Shown here: one piece after another, positions 45,644-62,513 of the stretch | Numbering within the stretch: position 1 is the stretch's first letter | Layout: every line of letters starts with the position of its first letter | Assembly: GCF_000497575.1 (NCBI RefSeq) | Contig: NZ_APJI01000004.1 | Location: forward strand, 62,001 to 126,000 | Source of the DNA: Afipia sp. OHSU_II-C1 | GTDB lineage: Bacteria; Pseudomonadota; Alphaproteobacteria; Rhizobiales; Xanthobacteraceae | DNA: 64,000 bases | Direction: 5' to 3' | Made by a program: the position numbers and the translations under genes | The notes under the pieces: generated by a model | What the model was told of the DNA's origin: nothing | Seen by the model: the letters and a program-made list of their open reading frames with translations, nothing else | The model's database searches: none

Positions 45644-46666
45644 ATGGCAACAGCGAAGAAAACCGCCGCGCAAGATGCTGGCAACGGCTCCCGCCATCCC
45701 AATAATCTGACATTCACGAAGGACCAGGAGCTTCGCGCGTTTCGCGAGATGATGCTGATCCGGCGCTTCGAGGAGAAGGCGGGTCAACTCTACGGCATGG
45801 GCGCGATCGGCGGTTTCTGTCATCTTTACATCGGTCAGGAAGCGGTCGTGGTGGGCATGCAGATGTCGCTCGAGCAAGGTGACCAGATCATCACCAGCTA
45901 TCGTGATCACGGTCATATGCTGGCCTGCGGGATGGACCCCAAGGGCGTGATGGCGGAACTCACAGGACGCGAAGCCGGCTATTCCAAGGGCAAGGGCGGC
46001 TCCATGCACATGTTCAGCAAGGAGAAGAACTTCTACGGCGGCCACGGCATCGTCGGTGCACAGGTTCCGCTCGGCACAGGTCTCGCGTTCGCCAACCGCT
46101 ATCGCGGCGACAAGAATGTCAGCGTCGCTTATTTCGGCGACGGCGCGGCCAATCAGGGGCAGGTCTACGAGAGCTTCAACATGGCGGAGCTCTGGAAGCT
46201 TCCCATCATCTACGTCATCGAGAACAACCGTTACGCCATGGGCACTTCGGTCTCGCGTTCGTCGGCGCAGACCGATTTCTCCAAGCGCGGCGCGTCGTTC
46301 AACATCCCGGGCGAACAGGTCGACGGTATGGACGTCCGTGCGGTGAAAGCCGCGGGCGACAAGGCGGTGCAGTGGTGCCGCGAAGGCAACGGGCCTTACA
46401 TTCTCGAGATGCAGACGTACCGTTACCGTGGCCACTCGATGTCCGATCCCGCCAAGTATCGGACCCGTGAGGAAGTGGACAAGGTGCGCCACGACAGCGA
46501 TCCGATCGAGCAGGTGAGGCAGCGGTTGCTGGACCTCAAGGTCAGCGAGCAGGAGCTGAAGGCGATCGACGCGGAAGTGCGCGAGATCGTCAACGAGGCG
46601 GCGGACTTCGCGCAGCACGCGCCGGAGCCGGATGCGTCCGAGCTATACACCGACATCTACCGATAA
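45644..46666 (+). CDS. pdhA: Pyruvate dehydrogenase E1 component, alpha subunit
   Basis: Thiamine-diphosphate-dependent decarboxylating subunit. The ThDP motif is [20 protein letters not shown], ending in [17 protein letters not shown] holds the phosphorylation-loop residues of the family. The frame is open upstream, but ATG 45644 ([12 protein letters not shown]) gives 340 residues, normal for the type. An inverted repeat GGGTAC-N8-GTACCC lies 22-41 bases before the start. It heads the pdh gene set. Confidence 0.96.
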
Positions 46667-46679
46667 GTGCGGAGCCACC

Positions 46680-48101
46680 ATGCCGATTCAAGTTCTGATG
46701 CCCGCGCTTTCGCCCACCATGGAGAAAGGCAATCTTTCCAAATGGTTGAAAAAAGAGGGTGAAGCCATCAAGTCCGGCGACGTGATCGCCGAAATCGAAA
46801 CCGACAAAGCCACCATGGAAGTCGAGGCGACCGACGAGGGGACGCTCGGCAAGATTCTTGTCGCTGAAGGCACCAACGATGTCGCCGTCAACACACCGAT
46901 CGCGACCATCCTCAGTGACGGTGAGAGCGCCGCCGATCTGGGCAAGGCCCCGGCCGCCGCTGCCGCCAAGGCCCCTGAGGCCAGTCCTCAAGTTAAGCAA
47001 GAAGTTGAAGAGTCGCGCTCACCCGTCGGGGAAGGCAAGCCCCAGATCAGCGCTCCGCCGGTGGTCGCGGCGCCAGCCGCTCCGGTCGAGCCGGACCCCG
47101 AAGTGCCGCCCGGCACCGAGATGGTCAAGATGACGGTGCGCGAAGCGCTCCGCGATGCCATGGCCGAGGAAATGCGCCGCGACGGCGATGTGTTCGTGAT
47201 GGGTGAAGAGGTCGCTGAATATCAGGGCGCCTACAAGATCACCCAGGGCCTGTTGCAGGAATTCGGCGCGCGCCGCGTGATCGATACGCCGATCACCGAG
47301 CACGGTTTCGCCGGCGTCGGCGTCGGTGCGGCGATGGCCGGGCTGAAGCCCATTGTTGAGTTCATGACCTTCAACTTCGCGATGCAGGCGATTGACCAGA
47401 TCATCAACTCCGCGGCGAAGACGCTCTACATGTCCGGCGGCCAGATGGGCTGCTCGATAGTGTTCCGCGGACCGAACGGCGCGGCGGCACGCGTGGCCGC
47501 CCAGCACAGCCAGGACTACTCGGCGTGGTACTCGCAGATTCCGGGCCTCAAGGTTGTCGCGCCGTATTCGGCGGCGGATGCGAAGGGTCTGCTCAAGGCG
47601 GCGATCCGCGATCCGAACCCGGTGATCTTCCTTGAAAACGAAATTCTGTACGGGCACACCGGCGATGTGCCGAAGCTCGACGACTATGTCGTTCCGATCG
47701 GCAAGGCGCGGATCGTGCGGCCGGGCAAGGACGTGACGCTGGTGTCATGGTCGAACGGCATGACCTATGCGCTGGGCGCCGCCGATGAACTCGCCAAGGA
47801 AGGCATCGAGGCGGAGGTCATCGATCTGCGCACGCTGCGTCCGATGGACACCGAGACGATCATCAATTCGGTGAAGAAAACCGGACGCGCGGTCGCGGTC
47901 GAGGAAGGCTGGCAGCAGTCCGGCGTCGGCGCGGAAATCGCGGCGCGGATCATGGAGCAGGCGTTCGATTATCTCGACGCGCCGGTTGCGCGCGTGTCGG
48001 GCAAGGACGTGCCGATGCCGTACGCGGCCAATCTCGAAAAGCTTGCGCTGCCGACGGTGGCGGAAGTCGTCGCCGCCGCCAAGGCTGTTAGTTATCGCTG
48101 A
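46680..48101 (+). CDS. pdhB: Pyruvate dehydrogenase E1 component, beta subunit, with lipoyl domain
   Basis: A 473-residue E1-beta carrying an extra N-terminal lipoyl domain (1-80; lipoylation Lys in [13 protein letters not shown]) and an Ala/Pro linker (90-140) before the transketolase-like E1-beta body (from [18 protein letters not shown]). This arrangement is typical of alphaproteobacterial PDH. GGAG precedes ATG 46680, 13 bases after the pdhA stop. A composite repeat follows it, separating it from pdhC. Confidence 0.96.
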
Positions 48102-48111
48102 GAGAGCAGGA

Positions 48112-48188
48112 CCAGTGCGGTGGTTCAGAAGTTCGCTTCATCATTCCGCGAATTCTTCAAGCGAACTTCTGAACCGAAACCGCACTGG
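48112..48188. repeat. First hairpin of a paired palindromic element (pdhB-pdhC gap)
   Basis: CCAGTGCGGT (48112-48121) pairs with ACCGCACTGG (48179-48188). The adjoining 17 bases at 48122-48138 pair perfectly with 48159-48175. A 3-base GAA bulge lies on the 3' side and the loop is 20 bases. Read in reverse complement it has the layout of the hairpin at 48201-48276, including a TTC bulge on the 5' side. It is one half of a two-part element. Confidence 0.85.
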
Positions 48189-48200
48189 ATAGTAGATTTG

Positions 48201-48276
48201 CGAGTGTCCCTTCGAATCCGAAGTTCGTAACGGAGGGCGCCGTACAATGAGACGAACTTCGGATTCGGGACACTCG
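48201..48276. repeat. Second hairpin of the paired palindromic element (pdhB-pdhC gap)
   Basis: CGAGTGTCCC (48201-48210) pairs with GGGACACTCG (48267-48276); a TTC bulge follows; then 15 bases (48214-48228) pair with 48252-48266; the loop is 23 bases. It is closely similar to the hairpin at 59308-59384. It ends four bases before the pdhC ATG, and its 3' arm holds the only purine-rich GGGA near that start. Confidence 0.87.
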
Positions 48277-48280
48277 TATC

Positions 48281-49636
48281 ATGCCGATCAACATTCTGAT
48301 GCCTGCACTGTCTCCCACCATGGAGAAGGGTAACCTCTCCAAGTGGCTCAAGAAGGAAGGCGACAAGGTCAAGTCAGGCGATGTGATTGCCGAGATCGAG
48401 ACCGACAAGGCGACGATGGAAGTCGAAGCCGTCGATGAAGGCACCATCGCGAAGATCCTCGTGCCGGAAGGCACCCAGGATGTTCCGGTCAACAATGTCA
48501 TTGCGGTGCTTGCTGGTGACGGCGAAGACGTGAAGGCCGCCGGAGCAGGTGCCGCATCGGCTGCGCCTGCGAAATCGGAAGCCGCGCCTGCGCCGGCTCC
48601 GAAAGCTGCTGCGCCTGCCGCAGTACCGGCTCCGGCTGCTGCATCCGCGCCAGCGAAGCCTGCTGCTGCACCAGCCGCCGCAGCGGCTTCTGTACCAAGC
48701 AACGGCGCGCGCGTGTTCTCGTCGCCACTGGCGCGGCGTCTTGCGAAGGAAGCCGGGATTGATCTGTCCCGCGTCACCGGTTCGGGGCCGCATGGCCGCG
48801 TGGTGGCGCGCGACATCGATCAGGCGAAGTCCGGCAAGGGCCTCAAGCCCGCAGCCAGCGCAGGCGCTGCCACCGGCGCAGTCGGTGCGCCCGCGATGTC
48901 GGACCAGCAGATCCTAGCGCTGTATGAGGAGGGCGGTTACGAGAGCGTGCCGCACGACTCGATGCGCCGGACCATCGCGCAGCGTCTCACCGCTGCGACC
49001 AATTCGATGCCGACGTTCTATCTCACGATTGATTGCGATCTCGGCAAGCTCAACGCGGCGCGCGAGGATATCAACGCCGCTGCGGGCAAGAACGCAGACG
49101 GCAAGCCGCTCTACAAGATTTCGGTGAACGACTTTGTCATCAAGGCGATGGCGCTCGCGCTGCAGAAGATTCCGGAGGCAAACGTCTCATGGACCGAGAC
49201 GGCGATGCTTCGCCACAAGCATTCGGACATCGGCGTCGCGGTGGCTCTGCCATTCGGCCTGATTACCCCGATCATTCGCCAGGCCGAAATCAAGACCCTG
49301 TCGGCAATTTCCAGCGAGATGAAGGATCTCGCTGCGCGCGCCAAGGCCAAGAAGCTCAAGCCGAACGAGTATCAGGGTGGCACGTCGTCGGTATCGAACC
49401 TCGGCATGTACGGCATCAAGGACTTTACCGCGGTGATCAATCCGCCGCAGTCATCGATCCTTGCCGTCGGCACGAGCGAAGATCGGGCTGTCGTGCGCAA
49501 TGGCCAGATCGTTGCTGCGTCCATGATGAGCGTGACATTGTCCTGTGATCATCGCGCCATCGATGGCGCGCTTGGCGCGGAACTGATCACCGCGTTCAAG
49601 AAGCTGATCGAAAACCCCGTGATGATGGTGGTGTAG
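48281..49636 (+). CDS. pdhC: Dihydrolipoamide acetyltransferase (E2 of pyruvate dehydrogenase)
   Basis: Core subunit transferring acetyl to CoA. One lipoyl domain (1-80; Lys in [13 protein letters not shown]), an Ala/Pro/Lys linker, a peripheral-subunit-binding domain ([20 protein letters not shown], near 147-166), another flexible linker, then the catalytic domain ending in [15 protein letters not shown] (catalytic His and Asp). At 451 residues it is complete. No strong Shine-Dalgarno sequence precedes ATG 48281 apart from GGGA inside the hairpin, so that structure may affect translation. Confidence 0.97.
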
Positions 49637-58080: not shown

Positions 58081-59217
58081 ATGACTGGAAATTTTTTCAA
58101 ACGGCGTATTTTGCTCGCGGCCATCGTTGTTGCGGCTGTCGCGCTCTATGCAACGCGATCGACGTGGATGGGCGGCGCGACCACCGCGCAGGCTCCGCCT
58201 CGGCCTCGCGCCATTTCCGTGGAGATCGCGAAAGCCGAGAAGAAGCGGGTTCCGGTCGATGTGGATTCCATCGGAATGGTGACGCCGATCTCGAGCGTGG
58301 CGCTGAAATCCCGGGTCGAGACCACCATCGTCGGAGTTCACTTCGAGGACGGCGCTCGCGTCAAGGAAGGCGATCTGCTGTTCACACTGGACTCGCGCCA
58401 GATCGACGCGCAGATCGCGCAGGCTGAAGGCAATCTCGCGCGGTCTCAATCGACACTCGTCGCGGCGGAGCGCGACATGAGGCGTTTCAACGAGTTGATC
58501 GGCAAGGGGGCAACCACACAGGTCAACGTCGACAATGCGAAGACCGCCGCCGACACTGCGACCGCGACCATTCAGGCCGATCAGGCCATTCTGGACAATC
58601 TGAAGGTCCAGAAGAGCTACACCAGGATTGTCGCGCCGATCAGCGGCCGCATCAGCGCAGCGTCGGTCAAGGTCGGGAATTTCGTCCGTCCTGCGGATAC
58701 GTCGCCGCTCGCGACCATCAACCAGATGGCGCCGGTCTATGTGACGTTCGCAATCCCGCAGCGTGTGCTGAGCGATTTGCGCGATGCCATGAAGGAAAAT
58801 CAGTCGTCGGTGACGGCGACCATTCCCGGCAACAACAAATCCGAAACCGGCACTGTTGCGATGGTCGAGAACACCGTCGATGCCACCACCGGCATGGTGA
58901 CCGTGCGCGGCATCATGGGCAACGAGAGCGAGGTCTTGTGGCCCGGTATCCTCGTCAACGCGACCCTTACGGTTCGTAATGAAACCGCAGTCGTCGTGCC
59001 CTCGGTCGGCATCCAGCGAAGCCAGACCGGCAACTTCGTCTTCGTCGTCCGTGACGGGAAGGCGCAGATGCAACCGGTGACGGTCAGCCGCACGTTTCAG
59101 GGACTGTCCGTGGTTGAGACCGGCCTCGGAGGCGGGGAGGATATCGTTGTCGATGGGCAGCTCCTTCTGTCCAACGGTTCGCCGGTGGAGCCGCGCAACC
59201 GCAAGGCCGGAGCATAA
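58081..59217 (+). CDS. RND efflux periplasmic adaptor (membrane fusion protein)
   Basis: A 378-residue HlyD/AcrA-type adaptor. An N-terminal membrane anchor (about 8-24) is followed by a barrel-sandwich lipoyl-like domain, a coiled-coil hairpin (about 105-185, IDAQIAQAEGNLARSQSTL) and beta-barrel/MP domains. It links the inner-membrane RND pump to an outer-membrane channel. No TolC-like gene is adjacent. It is separated from the pump gene by the second copy of the paired palindromic element. Confidence 0.94.
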   Translation: MTGNFFKRRILLAAIVVAAVALYATRSTWMGGATTAQAPPRPRAISVEIAKAEKKRVPVDVDSIGMVTPISSVALKSRVETTIVGVHFEDGARVKEGDLLFTLDSRQIDAQIAQAEGNLARSQSTLVAAERDMRRFNELIGKGATTQVNVDNAKTAADTATATIQADQAILDNLKVQKSYTRIVAPISGRISAASVKVGNFVRPADTSPLATINQMAPVYVTFAIPQRVLSDLRDAMKENQSSVTATIPGNNKSETGTVAMVENTVDATTGMVTVRGIMGNESEVLWPGILVNATLTVRNETAVVVPSVGIQRSQTGNFVFVVRDGKAQMQPVTVSRTFQGLSVVETGLGGGEDIVVDGQLLLSNGSPVEPRNRKAGA

Positions 59218-59218
59218 T

Positions 59219-59294
59219 CTAGTGATCCGACTCTAACATTCGCGTCCCTTCTCAGCAGGCATTTTTGCGAATGTTAGAAACAAGGGGTCACTAG
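59219..59294. repeat. First hairpin of a paired palindromic element (adaptor-RND gap)
   Basis: CTAGTGATCC pairs with GGGTCACTAG (one G-U). The inner TCTAACATTCGC (59232-59243) pairs perfectly with GCGAATGTTAGA (59267-59278). The loop is 23 bases and unpaired bases sit at the junction. The layout is similar to the hairpin at 48112-48188, and it occupies the same position relative to its partner. Confidence 0.82.
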
Positions 59295-59307
59295 CAAATA
59301 TAAGTTT

Positions 59308-59384
59308 TCGAGTGTCCTTCCGATCCGACGTTCGCTGCGGAAGGCGCTGCAAGGTTCAAGCGAACGGCGGATCGGGACACTCGA
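59308..59384. repeat. Second hairpin of the paired palindromic element (adaptor-RND gap)
   Basis: TCGAGTGTCC (59308-59317) pairs with GGACACTCGA (59375-59384). A TTC bulge follows, then CGATCCG and CGTTCGCT pair with CGGATCG and AGCGAACG, with one mismatch between. The loop is 22 bases. The last paired base is immediately before the ATG at 59385, and GGGA (59374-59377) in the stem is the only Shine-Dalgarno-like sequence. Confidence 0.87.
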
Positions 59385-62300
59385 ATGAACCTGTCGGAGC
59401 TTTGTATCCGCAGACCGGTGATGACGACGCTGATGACGGCGTCGATCATCGCGTTCGGTGTGTTCGGCTTCCGGCTGCTGCCGGTTTCCGCGCTTCCCAA
59501 GGTTGATTTTCCGACCATTCAGGTCACGGCAACCCTGCCGGGCGCCAGCGCCGACACCATGGCGGCGTCTGTTGCGGGTCCGATCGAGCGCCAGCTTTCG
59601 ACCGTCGCGGGTATCTCCTCGATGTCGTCGAGTTCGTCGCAGGGCACGACCTCGATCACCATCCAGTTCGACCTCAACCGCAACATCGATGGCGCGGCTC
59701 TCGACGTGCAGACCGCGCTGACTGTCGCGCAGCGACGTCTGCCGGTGGAAATGCTGGTCCCGCCGAGCTTCCGCAAGGTGAACCCGGCCGACTTCCCCGT
59801 GCTGTTCGTGTCGCTGAGTTCCGAAACCCTGCCGCTCTCGACCGTCAACGAATACGGCGACATCACCATTGGACAGACCCTGTCGCAGATTCCGGGCGTG
59901 GCGCAGGTCCTGATCTACGGTCCGCAGAAGTTCGCGGTTCGTGTGCAGGCCGATCCCGAAGCCGCCGCGGCGCGCGGCTTGTCGCTGGAAGACATCCGCA
60001 CCGCCGTGTCGCGTGCCAATTCGTCAACGCCGGTCGGCACCCTGAACGGTCCGAAGCAGGACATCGCGATCCAGGCCTCGGGACAGCTCAGCAAGGCGAG
60101 CGACTATCGTCAGGTCGTGGTGGCTTGGCGCAACGGCTCGCCGGTGAAGCTCGACGAAGTCGCGAAAATCTACGACAGCGTCGAGAACGACAAGGCTGCG
60201 ACCTGGTTCAACGGCACCCGTTCCATCGTGCTGGCGATCCAGAAACAGCCCGACGCCAACACCGTGGCGGTGGTCGATGCGGTGCGCGCCAAGCTGCCAT
60301 CGCTGCGAGCGCAGATCCCGCCGTCGGTCACGATGGACGTCACCCTCGACCGCTCGGTGTCGATCCGCGAGTCCGTTGCCGACGTGGAGGAGACGCTGCT
60401 GATCGCCGTCGGCCTCGTGATCGTCGTGATCTTCCTGTTCCTGCGCTCGGCGTCCGCCACCCTTATTCCGGCGCTTGCGGTTCCGATTTCGGTGCTGGGC
60501 ACCTGCGCGGTGATGTACGCGCTCGACTACTCGATCAACAACATGACGCTGCTGGCGCTGACGCTGTCGGTCGGCTTCGTGGTCGACGACGCCATCGTCA
60601 TGCTTGAAAACATCATGCGCCACATCGAGGAGGGCATGAAGCCTTACGAGGCCGCGTTGAAGGGCGCGCGCGAGATCGGCTTCACCATCCTGTCGATCAC
60701 GTTCTCGCTGATCGCGGTGTTCATCCCGGTGCTGCTGATGGGCGGCATTGTCGGCCGCGTGTTCCGTGAGTTCGCCGTAACGATCTCTGTAGCCATCCTT
60801 GTGTCCGGATTCGTGTCGCTGACCCTGACGCCCATGCTCTGCGCGCGGGTGCTCAAGCCCCACGATCCGCATCACAAACCCAACTTCGTGCTGCGCTGGT
60901 TCGAGGCGATGTTTGAGTCCTGGCTGCGCGCCTATGAATGGACGCTGGATCGCGTGCTGGCCTACAAGTCGGTCATGCTGTTGGTGACGTTCGCAACACT
61001 TGGCCTCACCATCTGGCTCTACATGATCGTGCCGAAGGGTTTCTTCCCGCAGGAAGACACCGGCTTCCTCAGCGGCACGACGGAAGCCGCGACCGATACC
61101 TCGTTCGCGGCGATGAGTGACCGCCAGAAAATTCTTGCCGACATTCTGCGGGCCGATCCGGCGGTGGAATTCGTCAACAGCACCGTCGGCTCCGGCGGCC
61201 CCAATCCGACCGCGAACTACGGACGCCTGTTCATCGGTCTGAAGCCGAAGGACGAGCGCGATCCGGCACCGGTGGTGATGGCGCGGCTGCGGCAGAAGGC
61301 GCTGCAGGTGCCGGGCCTGCAGGCGTTCTTCCAGGGCATCCAGAACCTGAATATCGGCGGACGCCCGTCCAAGAGCCAGTACCAGTACACGTTGCAGAGC
61401 GGCGATACGGATTCGCTCTACCGCGCGGCGCCTGAAATGCGCGATCGCATCGCGAAGGTCGATGGATTGCAGGATGTCACCACGGATCTTTACATCAAGA
61501 ACCCGCAGCTCACAGTCGAGATCGACCGCGAGAAGGCCGCAGTCTATGGCGTTACTGCGGACCAGATCCGCAACCAGCTCTTCAACGCCTACGGCGCGCG
61601 GCAGGTGGGCACGATCTACATGCCCTCGAATGACTACCAGATCATTCTGGAAGTGCAGCCGAAGTTCCGCGTCGATCCGACCGACCTGTCCAAGCTGTAT
61701 GTGAAGACCACGAACAATCAGACCATTCCGCTCGATGCGGTGGCCAAAATGGTGCCGACTGTCGGGCCGTTGCAGATCAATCACCAGGGCCAGCAGCCGG
61801 CGGTGACGATCTCGTTCAACCTGCGGCCCGGCACGTCGCTCGGCTATGCGGTCGATCAGATCACCAAGATCGAGCAGGATTCGAATTTGCCGGCGACCAT
61901 TGCGACCGGCTTCTCAGGCACTGCGCAGGTGTTCCAGGATTCGCTGCGCGGGCAAGGCGTGCTCATTCTCGCCGCCGTGTTCGCCGCCTTCGTCATTCTC
62001 GGCATTCTCTACGAGAGCTTCATCCATCCGATCACCATCATCTCGGGCCTGCCGTCCGCGGGCATCGGCGCGATCCTGACGCTGATGCTGTTTAAGATGG
62101 AGTTGTCGGTGATCGCCATGATCGGCATCGTCATGCTGGTCGGCATCGTGAAGAAGAACGCCATCATGATGGTCGACTTCGCCATCGAGCGCCGCTCCGT
62201 GGGCCTGAGCGCGGAGCATGCTATTCGCGAGGCGGCGCTGATGCGCTTCCGGCCGATCATGATGACGACCTTCGCCGCGATCTTCGGCACGCTCCCGATC

Positions 62301-62513
62301 GCGCTGGGCGCGGGCGCCGGCGCCGAGTTGCGTCAGCCGCTCGGCGTGGCGGTGGTGGGCGGGCTTCTGGTGTCGCAACTGCTGACGCTGTTCATCACGC
62401 CGGTGATCTACATTTATCTCGACCGGATCGATCGCCGTCTGAAGCGCCGCCTCGATCCGACGCTGATCGAGGCGCCGGACGTCGAACCGCCGCGCGCTGC
62501 GGCGGCTGAGTAG
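59385..62513 (+). CDS. RND family multidrug efflux permease (MdtB/MdtC-type)
   Basis: A 1042-residue inner-membrane proton-driven pump of the HAE1 class. It starts MNLSELCIRRPVMTTLMTAS, has 12 membrane helices in two halves with large periplasmic loops after helices 1 and 7, and the proton-relay acidic pair in VGFVVDDAIVMLENI (about residue 400). The second half has VGIVKKNAIMMVDFA. Substrates are unknown. The start codon abuts a long hairpin that may tune its expression. Confidence 0.95.
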   Translation: MNLSELCIRRPVMTTLMTASIIAFGVFGFRLLPVSALPKVDFPTIQVTATLPGASADTMAASVAGPIERQLSTVAGISSMSSSSSQGTTSITIQFDLNRNIDGAALDVQTALTVAQRRLPVEMLVPPSFRKVNPADFPVLFVSLSSETLPLSTVNEYGDITIGQTLSQIPGVAQVLIYGPQKFAVRVQADPEAAAARGLSLEDIRTAVSRANSSTPVGTLNGPKQDIAIQASGQLSKASDYRQVVVAWRNGSPVKLDEVAKIYDSVENDKAATWFNGTRSIVLAIQKQPDANTVAVVDAVRAKLPSLRAQIPPSVTMDVTLDRSVSIRESVADVEETLLIAVGLVIVVIFLFLRSASATLIPALAVPISVLGTCAVMYALDYSINNMTLLALTLSVGFVVDDAIVMLENIMRHIEEGMKPYEAALKGAREIGFTILSITFSLIAVFIPVLLMGGIVGRVFREFAVTISVAILVSGFVSLTLTPMLCARVLKPHDPHHKPNFVLRWFEAMFESWLRAYEWTLDRVLAYKSVMLLVTFATLGLTIWLYMIVPKGFFPQEDTGFLSGTTEAATDTSFAAMSDRQKILADILRADPAVEFVNSTVGSGGPNPTANYGRLFIGLKPKDERDPAPVVMARLRQKALQVPGLQAFFQGIQNLNIGGRPSKSQYQYTLQSGDTDSLYRAAPEMRDRIAKVDGLQDVTTDLYIKNPQLTVEIDREKAAVYGVTADQIRNQLFNAYGARQVGTIYMPSNDYQIILEVQPKFRVDPTDLSKLYVKTTNNQTIPLDAVAKMVPTVGPLQINHQGQQPAVTISFNLRPGTSLGYAVDQITKIEQDSNLPATIATGFSGTAQVFQDSLRGQGVLILAAVFAAFVILGILYESFIHPITIISGLPSAGIGAILTLMLFKMELSVIAMIGIVMLVGIVKKNAIMMVDFAIERRSVGLSAEHAIREAALMRFRPIMMTTFAAIFGTLPIALGAGAGAELRQPLGVAVVGGLLVSQLLTLFITPVIYIYLDRIDRRLKRRLDPTLIEAPDVEPPRAAAAE

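Follow-up and report, generated by a model that had tools for sequence, protein, structure and literature searches.

What are the two pairs of inverted hairpins that stand between consecutive genes at two places in the 64-kb stretch of DNA analysed here (the window), and how did they come to be there? Mobile repeats that are tiny and carry no gene shape the gaps between bacterial genes, and REPINs, the hairpin doublets of bacteria that are best explained, depend on RAYT. The original prediction regarded the pairs as copies of a BIME-like composite of two inverted units, possibly mobilised by a RAYT-type transposase encoded elsewhere. The reading that we favour, and consider likely, is that of a ~165-bp non-autonomous mobile DNA element, which moves as a whole composite, inserts at CTAG-like tetranucleotides and is mobilised by a putative transposase acting in trans. 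The moving unit would consist of both inverted hairpins around a 12-14-nt AT-rich spacer, insertion at a CTAG-like tetranucleotide would leave one such tetranucleotide at each end, and the enzyme would probably read folded single-stranded DNA (or a cruciform) and not a fixed terminal repeat sequence. This twin-hairpin family combines a REPIN-like lifestyle with CTAG-like sites, and hence stop codons, and with no RAYT found in the genus studied. Its many comparable insertions, which are filled, empty or half-deleted in sister genomes, open two questions, namely which enzyme serves an element defined by its shape, and why the stems stay paired long after insertion.

Two hairpin composites in the window

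The positions of both copies and of their neighbouring genes are collected in Table 1. RNA folding of positions 59215-59390 and 48100-48285 yielded -78.7 kcal/mol (z -7.6) and -97.5 kcal/mol (z -10.5), respectively, values that were equalled by none of 200 dinucleotide shuffles in either case; the hairpin pairs at 59219-59383 and 48112-48276 are real, far beyond chance. A covariance model (R1) located the four hairpins at 60 to 84 bits and no other in a scan of the window at E values of up to 1, in agreement with the two copies originally claimed; since these four hairpins and 31 others had served to build it, its scores in the window are not independent.

Table 1. Hairpin composites of the window and the genes on either side of them.
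Feature	Positions	Strand	Details
Pyruvate dehydrogenase E1 beta with lipoyl domain, before copy 1	46632..48101	+	
H1 of copy 1	48112..48188	-	model R1 83.0 bits; outer foot CCAG
AT-rich spacer of copy 1	48189..48200	.	12 nt
H2 of copy 1	48201..48276	+	model R1 84.3 bits; inner foot CGAG, outer foot CTCG
Pyruvate dehydrogenase E2 (acetyltransferase), after copy 1	48281..49636	+	
HlyD/CusB-type membrane-fusion (RND adaptor) protein, upstream of copy 2	58081..59217	+	PF16576, PF13437; stop TAA 59215-59217
H1 of copy 2	59219..59294	-	model R1 73.0 bits, E 1.8e-15; outer foot CTAG 59219-59222
AT-rich spacer of copy 2	59295..59308	.	14 nt
H2 of copy 2	59309..59383	+	model R1 60.3 bits, E 2.2e-12; inner foot CGAG, outer foot CTCG 59380-59383
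AcrB-type RND permease, downstream of copy 2	59385..62513	+	PF00873, 1045 bits

In its canonical form a hairpin begins with a foot, CTAG (or CCAG, CTGG, CGAG), followed by TG, inside a 10-bp outer stem; inward from this, the arm on the spacer side has a 3-nt T-rich bulge, beyond which an inner stem of 15 bp is capped by a loop of ~22 nt. The two hairpins of a composite are mutually inverted, and the picture is identical on both strands. Some details of the original description needed correction: of the two spacers given as 12 and 13 bases the former is accurate but the latter, by the boundaries of the model, measures 14 nt, the bulge said to be common to both copies reads TTC in copy 1 but TCC in copy 2, and the last pair of the conserved stem, said to touch the permease ATG, stops one base short of it, although two possible extra A-U pairs would reach its A. 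At the opposite end of copy 2 the outer foot lies one base past the adaptor stop, and here too the bulge is in the spacer-side arm. Two non-standard pairs are present in H1 of this copy and one in its H2, and H1 is, by virtue of its two, partly decayed.

Across the 21 composites of the genome that carries the window (the own genome) the spacers are 8-14 nt long and 79% A+T; TATAAT-like letters occur in several of them, e.g. AATTATAATTT. A search of the window against Rfam 15 returned no matches above the curated scores, and the same database applied to three other loci gave two sub-threshold microRNA-family matches only, on a copy from the single-contig genome G095.

A widespread family with compensated stems

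Model R1 identified at least 21 composites and five lone hairpins in the own genome (84 matches, many of them one hairpin found on both strands), a lower bound as 150 of 2315 first-look candidates were scored. Matches were obtained in all 25 genomes of the genus that were searched and, at the family level, in 83 of 149 genomes representing 32 of 47 genera, which bears out the expected presence in Bradyrhizobium-type genomes. None of 16 genomes from other families of the order gave a match, while a class-wide draw produced matches in 19 of 385 genomes, the own genome included, across 15 families; the genus and order, family, and class searches employed stricter filters, with 117, 32 and 12 candidates scored per genome, respectively, and their counts are likewise lower bounds. 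Elsewhere in the class the matching paired build occurs with other stem sequences. A compact hairpin of about 55-60 nt with a very short loop was additionally observed at L402, L403, L404, L406-L408 and L421, in three genomes of other alphaproteobacterial families. Searches of plasmids (two queries), phages (one query) and viral contigs (one pattern) found no copy.

When 35 hairpins of the own genome were aligned, 98.2% of the cells were paired and both-sided change was evident in 18 of 25 pairs. Neither value was reached by any of 500 shuffles of the alignment (the number of further pair types was reached by 11 of 500), and shifting the partner by 1-3 columns reduced pairing to 27-38%. A wider set of 39 hairpins, to which the own genome contributed 13 and G095 together with eleven further genomes the remainder, was 97.8% paired with both-sided change in 22 of 25 pairs; these hairpins had been chosen by model and structure scan, which biases the percentage paired towards structure and the both-sided changes to a smaller extent. 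In shape (foot, 3-nt bulge and 15-bp inner stem) the ~76-nt hairpin is constant, while its stem sequence varies with compensation.

Because the stem sequence is free, but the pairing, the position of the bulge and the foot are fixed, recognition of a folded form is probable, and it would be single-stranded DNA (or a cruciform) that the enzyme recognises. An extended form of this reading is that of a shape-read mobile element whose inner-foot tetranucleotide guides by pairing with the target tetranucleotide, with a single-stranded intermediate, a transposase class new to such elements, a spread across the Alphaproteobacteria and, in places, capture as a hairpin before a start codon; taken as a whole we deem this extension unlikely.

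The composite as the dispersed unit

The youngest copies were encountered in G095, where 39 tight pairs were present among 95 listed hairpins, all of them with H1 on the minus and H2 on the plus strand and with spacers of 12-14 nt; the reverse order was not represented by a single tight pair among these 95. Of twenty G095 loci picked for like scores, 17 share a single 165-bp composite with 97.6-100% identity, two are at 93% and one had no match over 150 bases. The flanks of the near-identical composites are unrelated, barring three nested copies (L270, L273 and L274), which lie exactly on the CTAG foot of older composites, and L266, the flanking repeat of which is common to the 93% copy L276. 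Furthermore, locus pairs from G072, G106 and G182 are 97-99% identical over roughly the length of the composite (147-172 bp). As far as such alignments can define it, the composite is the unit that is dispersed, and transposition would be the cause of its dispersal. The BIME-like composite of two inverted units proposed at the outset is accordingly upheld as a dispersed, mobile element of gene-gene junctions. The closest pair of composites in the own genome is 90% identical, and movement in this genome is therefore not recent.

Other dispersed repeats adjoin the composites in the G095 flanks of L257, L263, L266 and L276; one of these repeats has a AAACCGGTTTTCGG-like core and another starts with CTAGAGCG, with two composites located at the same end of the second.

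Empty sites and the target tetranucleotide

The adaptor-permease gap was compared in 29 genomes of the genus, in 20 of which both flanks could be aligned, the remaining nine having a more distant permease match only. The composite is present in six of the 20 (gaps of 161-166 nt) and the gap is reduced to -1 to 5 nt in the other 14, so that the empty orthologous sites anticipated for sister strains do exist. In G005, one of the 14 empty gaps, about eleven bases match the left arm exactly, which is likely a deletion footprint. Composite leftovers (about 6 to 34 nt, arm ends) were noted in L215 (G005), L323 (G184) and L302 (G185), where sister genomes have a filled or an empty site, and these short leftovers are likely to be deletion footprints also. 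A 15-nt composite-like remnant in L295 (G019) lies a few bases from its counterpart own site C13:468877, which suggests two independent insertions in one gene gap.

The gap between the pyruvate dehydrogenase genes contained no family hairpin in 80 named relatives (two of which have fewer than 300 bases before E2), four scan matches being unrelated hairpins, and R1 gave no match over 552 kb around the gap in these relatives.

To read the joints, the 100-bp flanks of the 21 own composites were joined and aligned to six relatives, yielding 90 stretches, seven of them filled. Exactly 4 nt stand at the joint in at least one relative at nine of the 21 sites, no 4-nt joint being observed at the other 12. 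The tetranucleotides are GCAA, GCAA and GCAG at site 0; CTAG at site 2; CTGG, CCGG and CCGG at site 4; CCAG (five times) at site 5, which is copy 1; CTCG (twice) at site 6; CTAG (twice) and CCTG at site 7; CTGG (four times) at site 12; CTAG (twice) and TTAA at site 15; and CTGG (twice), TTGG and GATG (twice) at site 19. A 5-nt joint was present in a relative at sites 1, 8, 9, 10, 13 and 17, and by eye those of sites 8, 13 and 17 are compatible with a CTAG-like 4-mer shifted by one. No joint tetranucleotide is readable at sites 3, 11, 16, 18 and 20, and site 14 provided no data. At the readable sites the target, as it appears in these alignments, is mostly CTAG-like.

Copy 1 may serve as an example, as its empty joint is CCAG in five of the six relatives and its filled feet are CCAG on the left and CTCG on the right; the sixth relative, G185, has kept CACTCG, likely a remnant. 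The nine sites thus carry one tetranucleotide when empty and two when filled, the two often being unequal. Since the feet are often unequal and many of them match their inner partner, a 4-bp duplication is indistinguishable from feet that are partly carried by the element. In the case of G095, joined flanks could be aligned over the joint for two queries only, with identities of 81% and 74%, which is too diverged for the target to be read.

Placement at gene junctions

None of the 21 own composites and none of 19 in G095 are situated inside a gene as defined by a simple gene caller, with the qualification that an insertion truncating a gene at the foot would score as a gene end. The gene-junction bias that had been proposed is evident here, and much of it follows from the targets. 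The TAG in the terminal foot forms the end of an adjacent gene at six of the 21 own composites and at 11 of 16 non-nested composites of G095. Outside the elements, the 13 occurrences of CTAG in the window comprise five stop codons, five intergenic and three coding sites, and the 12 in the G095 flanks comprise four stop codons, six intergenic and two coding sites. CTAG is a rare word overall, scarce within genes and common in gene gaps and as C|TAG stops, which explains much of the junction bias with no special liking for operons. The target words CTGG, CCAG, CTCG and CGAG are common inside genes, and with these words the absence of composites from genes thus requires selection in addition.

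The proposed bias towards the start of the second gene was not borne out: a start codon lies within 15 nt at seven of 14 same-direction insertions, with 6.7 expected, and start-codon targeting was rejected. For this test the 14 same-direction gaps were entered by hand with the permease start at its true distance; the gene caller, a simple codon-score method, misplaces some starts (59421 for 59385), and start distances derived from it are rough. Nine of the 14 same-direction insertions are near stops, a number reached in 1161 of 20000 random placements.

The same counts bear on the rival view that the hairpins are host regulatory RNA or mRNA-stability structures, kept for their function and not mobile. 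In its favour, of the 20 own copies that were classified 14 have genes of the same direction on both sides; however, this share is that of the window, where same-direction gaps make up 4287 of the 5910 intergenic bases, with both elements counted. The many empty sites, the near-identical dispersed copies and the strand-symmetric shape likewise argue for mobility.

Search for a mobilising gene and comparison with known elements

If the composites were REPINs or BIMEs proper, they would be REP doublets moved by a Y1/RAYT transposase that has since been lost from the genus. The element shares with REPINs its non-autonomous nature and high copy number, together with traits reported for them in PMC3116915, namely an extragenic doublet of inverted hairpins, compensatory stem changes and nested clusters. 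A profile search with PF01797, which had been expected to reveal the RAYT or Y1 mobiliser, gave no match in the own genome or in any of seven genus genomes, four of which (G000, G013, G024 and G159) stand at the top of the listed R1 match numbers; these negatives apply to draft genomes at a cut-off of 1e-3, at which a divergent gene could be missed. Within the genus, the suggestion of a RAYT mobiliser is thus not supported, and no Y1 gene was found in these genomes. At the family level, PF01797 is matched in 35 of 149 genomes, including G095 with its youngest copies, where a 176-aa frame with a weak match (23.8 bits) is RAYT-like by eye, and a RAYT partner outside the genus is possible.

The distribution of hairpin-rich genomes (at least 26 R1 matches, counted by hand) is 13 of 35 with PF01797 versus 29 of 114 without, which leans towards a RAYT partner, yet 29 of the 42 hairpin-rich family genomes gave no match to it. 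Composites of 97% identity also recur within each of the draft genomes G106 and G182, neither of which has a PF01797 match. Moreover, REPs flank their RAYT, whereas hairpins lie within about 2 kb of just two of 20 chosen PF01797 genes, and no family hairpin was found within 2 kb of the RAYT-like gene of G095. The units themselves also differ, being 75-80 nt long with a tetranucleotide at both ends and with paired feet (mostly CTAG, CCAG, CTGG, CTCG or CGAG), while REPs are of 20-40 nt with GTAG or CGTC tags (PMC3733652). On balance a REPIN proper is unlikely.

One of the two PF01797 genes close to family hairpins belongs to an IS200-type element of G072 (L251:1690-2500), the transposase gene of which adjoins the outer foot of a composite and has its own short hairpin at both ends; given these different hairpin ends it was rejected as the parent and is considered a neighbour or passenger.

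RIME and Caulobacter-type repeats are palindromic intergenic repeats of alphaproteobacteria, and are likened to the present element by description only. Br-REP1 and Br-REP2 of Bradyrhizobium japonicum are similarly palindromic intergenic repeats of related bacteria, but the consensus printed in PMC5082802 (a 20-nt palindrome and an imperfect one of roughly 40 nt) is, by eye, unlike the arms and feet of the element. The GTAG-14 repeats of Rhodopseudomonas and Bradyrhizobium come close in being palindromic, in having loop regions that are complementary to themselves (up to 27 bp in Bradyrhizobium) and in forming dimers, but they are defined by a terminal GTAG, and this distinction is drawn from the text description in PMC3733652. 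A search of the literature (mostly freely accessible papers) and of Rfam retrieved no description of the twin-hairpin element, and the family looks like an apparently undescribed group of tiny non-coding mobile elements. It would belong with the small non-autonomous hairpin elements, of which the nearest in print (REPINs, GTAG/CGTC repeats and Br-REP1/2) have a like lifestyle but differ at tested or visible features.

The target preference raises a further rival, namely that of a MITE derived by internal deletion from a DDE insertion sequence with a CTAG habit (such as an IS5- or IS630-type element), the ends of which are read as double-stranded DNA. IS5 duplicates the tetranucleotide Py-T-A-Pu, most often CTAG (15 of the 24 cases listed in PMC5493358), a habit that resembles the sites described here. 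Additionally, an IS630-type element (DDE_3, HTH_Tnp_IS630; L119:2603-3811 in G082) has landed on the inner CTAG foot of a composite, which it splits. In contrast to such insertion sequences and their MITEs, the element has no gene, its ends are hairpins with covarying arms, and the two ends differ: their 5' arms are 48-75% identical over the 28-nt outer arm (mean 0.64 in 21 composites), which is little for a terminal inverted repeat. Compensated arm changes are not required by recognition of double-stranded ends, and a full-length parent with the same ends was not found in the loci read. We regard a MITE origin as rather unlikely. The IS630-type element itself has other ends and looks like a passenger. 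A rule that the two hairpins of a composite must differ was not borne out, for none of the 21 composites has arms that are at least 85% alike, yet 34 of 300 random re-pairings give zero as well.

Returning to the element moved in trans, no mobilising gene was found at the composites, the two transposase genes seen there (the IS630 of L119 and the IS200 of L251) resembling passengers. An autonomous copy with a gene between its halves was suspected because equal scores recurred close to contig ends and some clusters were spaced by about 1 kb. The frames that separate the hairpins of L003, L113, L118 and L119 were judged by eye and none was recognised as such a gene, the Pfam search of inter-hairpin frames covering the two transposase frames of L119 only; nor was a widely spaced lone minus-plus pair noticed among the listed G095 hairpins.

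Fate of the hairpins after insertion

Orthologous filled copies could be compared at five sites, where differences amount to 30 of 910 stem positions, 51 of 445 unpaired positions and 114 of 1078 positions in the 60-base flanks, a set in which retained copies are over-represented. In the adaptor-permease gap of six species, H2 has 24 of 720 differences in the stem and 83 of 390 in unpaired positions, while H1 has 98 of 750 and 113 of 390, respectively, and the spacer 39 of 198. By these counts the stems of inserted copies have diverged about a third as much as their loops or the flanks. Exceptions include site 1 in G184, where one H2 is mostly broken, and site 3, where the H2 stem differs more than the loop (4 of 156 versus 0 of 72).

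The lower divergence of the stems is what a regulatory RNA would lead one to expect, both at the five sites and in H2 of the RND gap. In view of the empty sites and dispersed copies described above, an immobile host RNA is nevertheless very unlikely as an account of the family, although at some loci a captured element may have acquired a function. If one arm were repaired from the other, pairing would persist with no obvious drop in the rate of change, and host selection on the hairpin is consequently a fair reading at some loci.

The adaptor-permease junction illustrates what such a capture would entail. In most of the empty forms GGAG stands some eight bases ahead of the permease ATG, a position that is occupied in the filled form by the 3' arm of H2. 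The composite thereby moves the permease start away from the ribosome-binding-like letters with which the adaptor gene ends and sets a strong hairpin directly before the ATG. An effect on expression would be anticipated from this arrangement, an altered ratio of the pump subunits or altered translation of the permease being the likely outcome at this locus.
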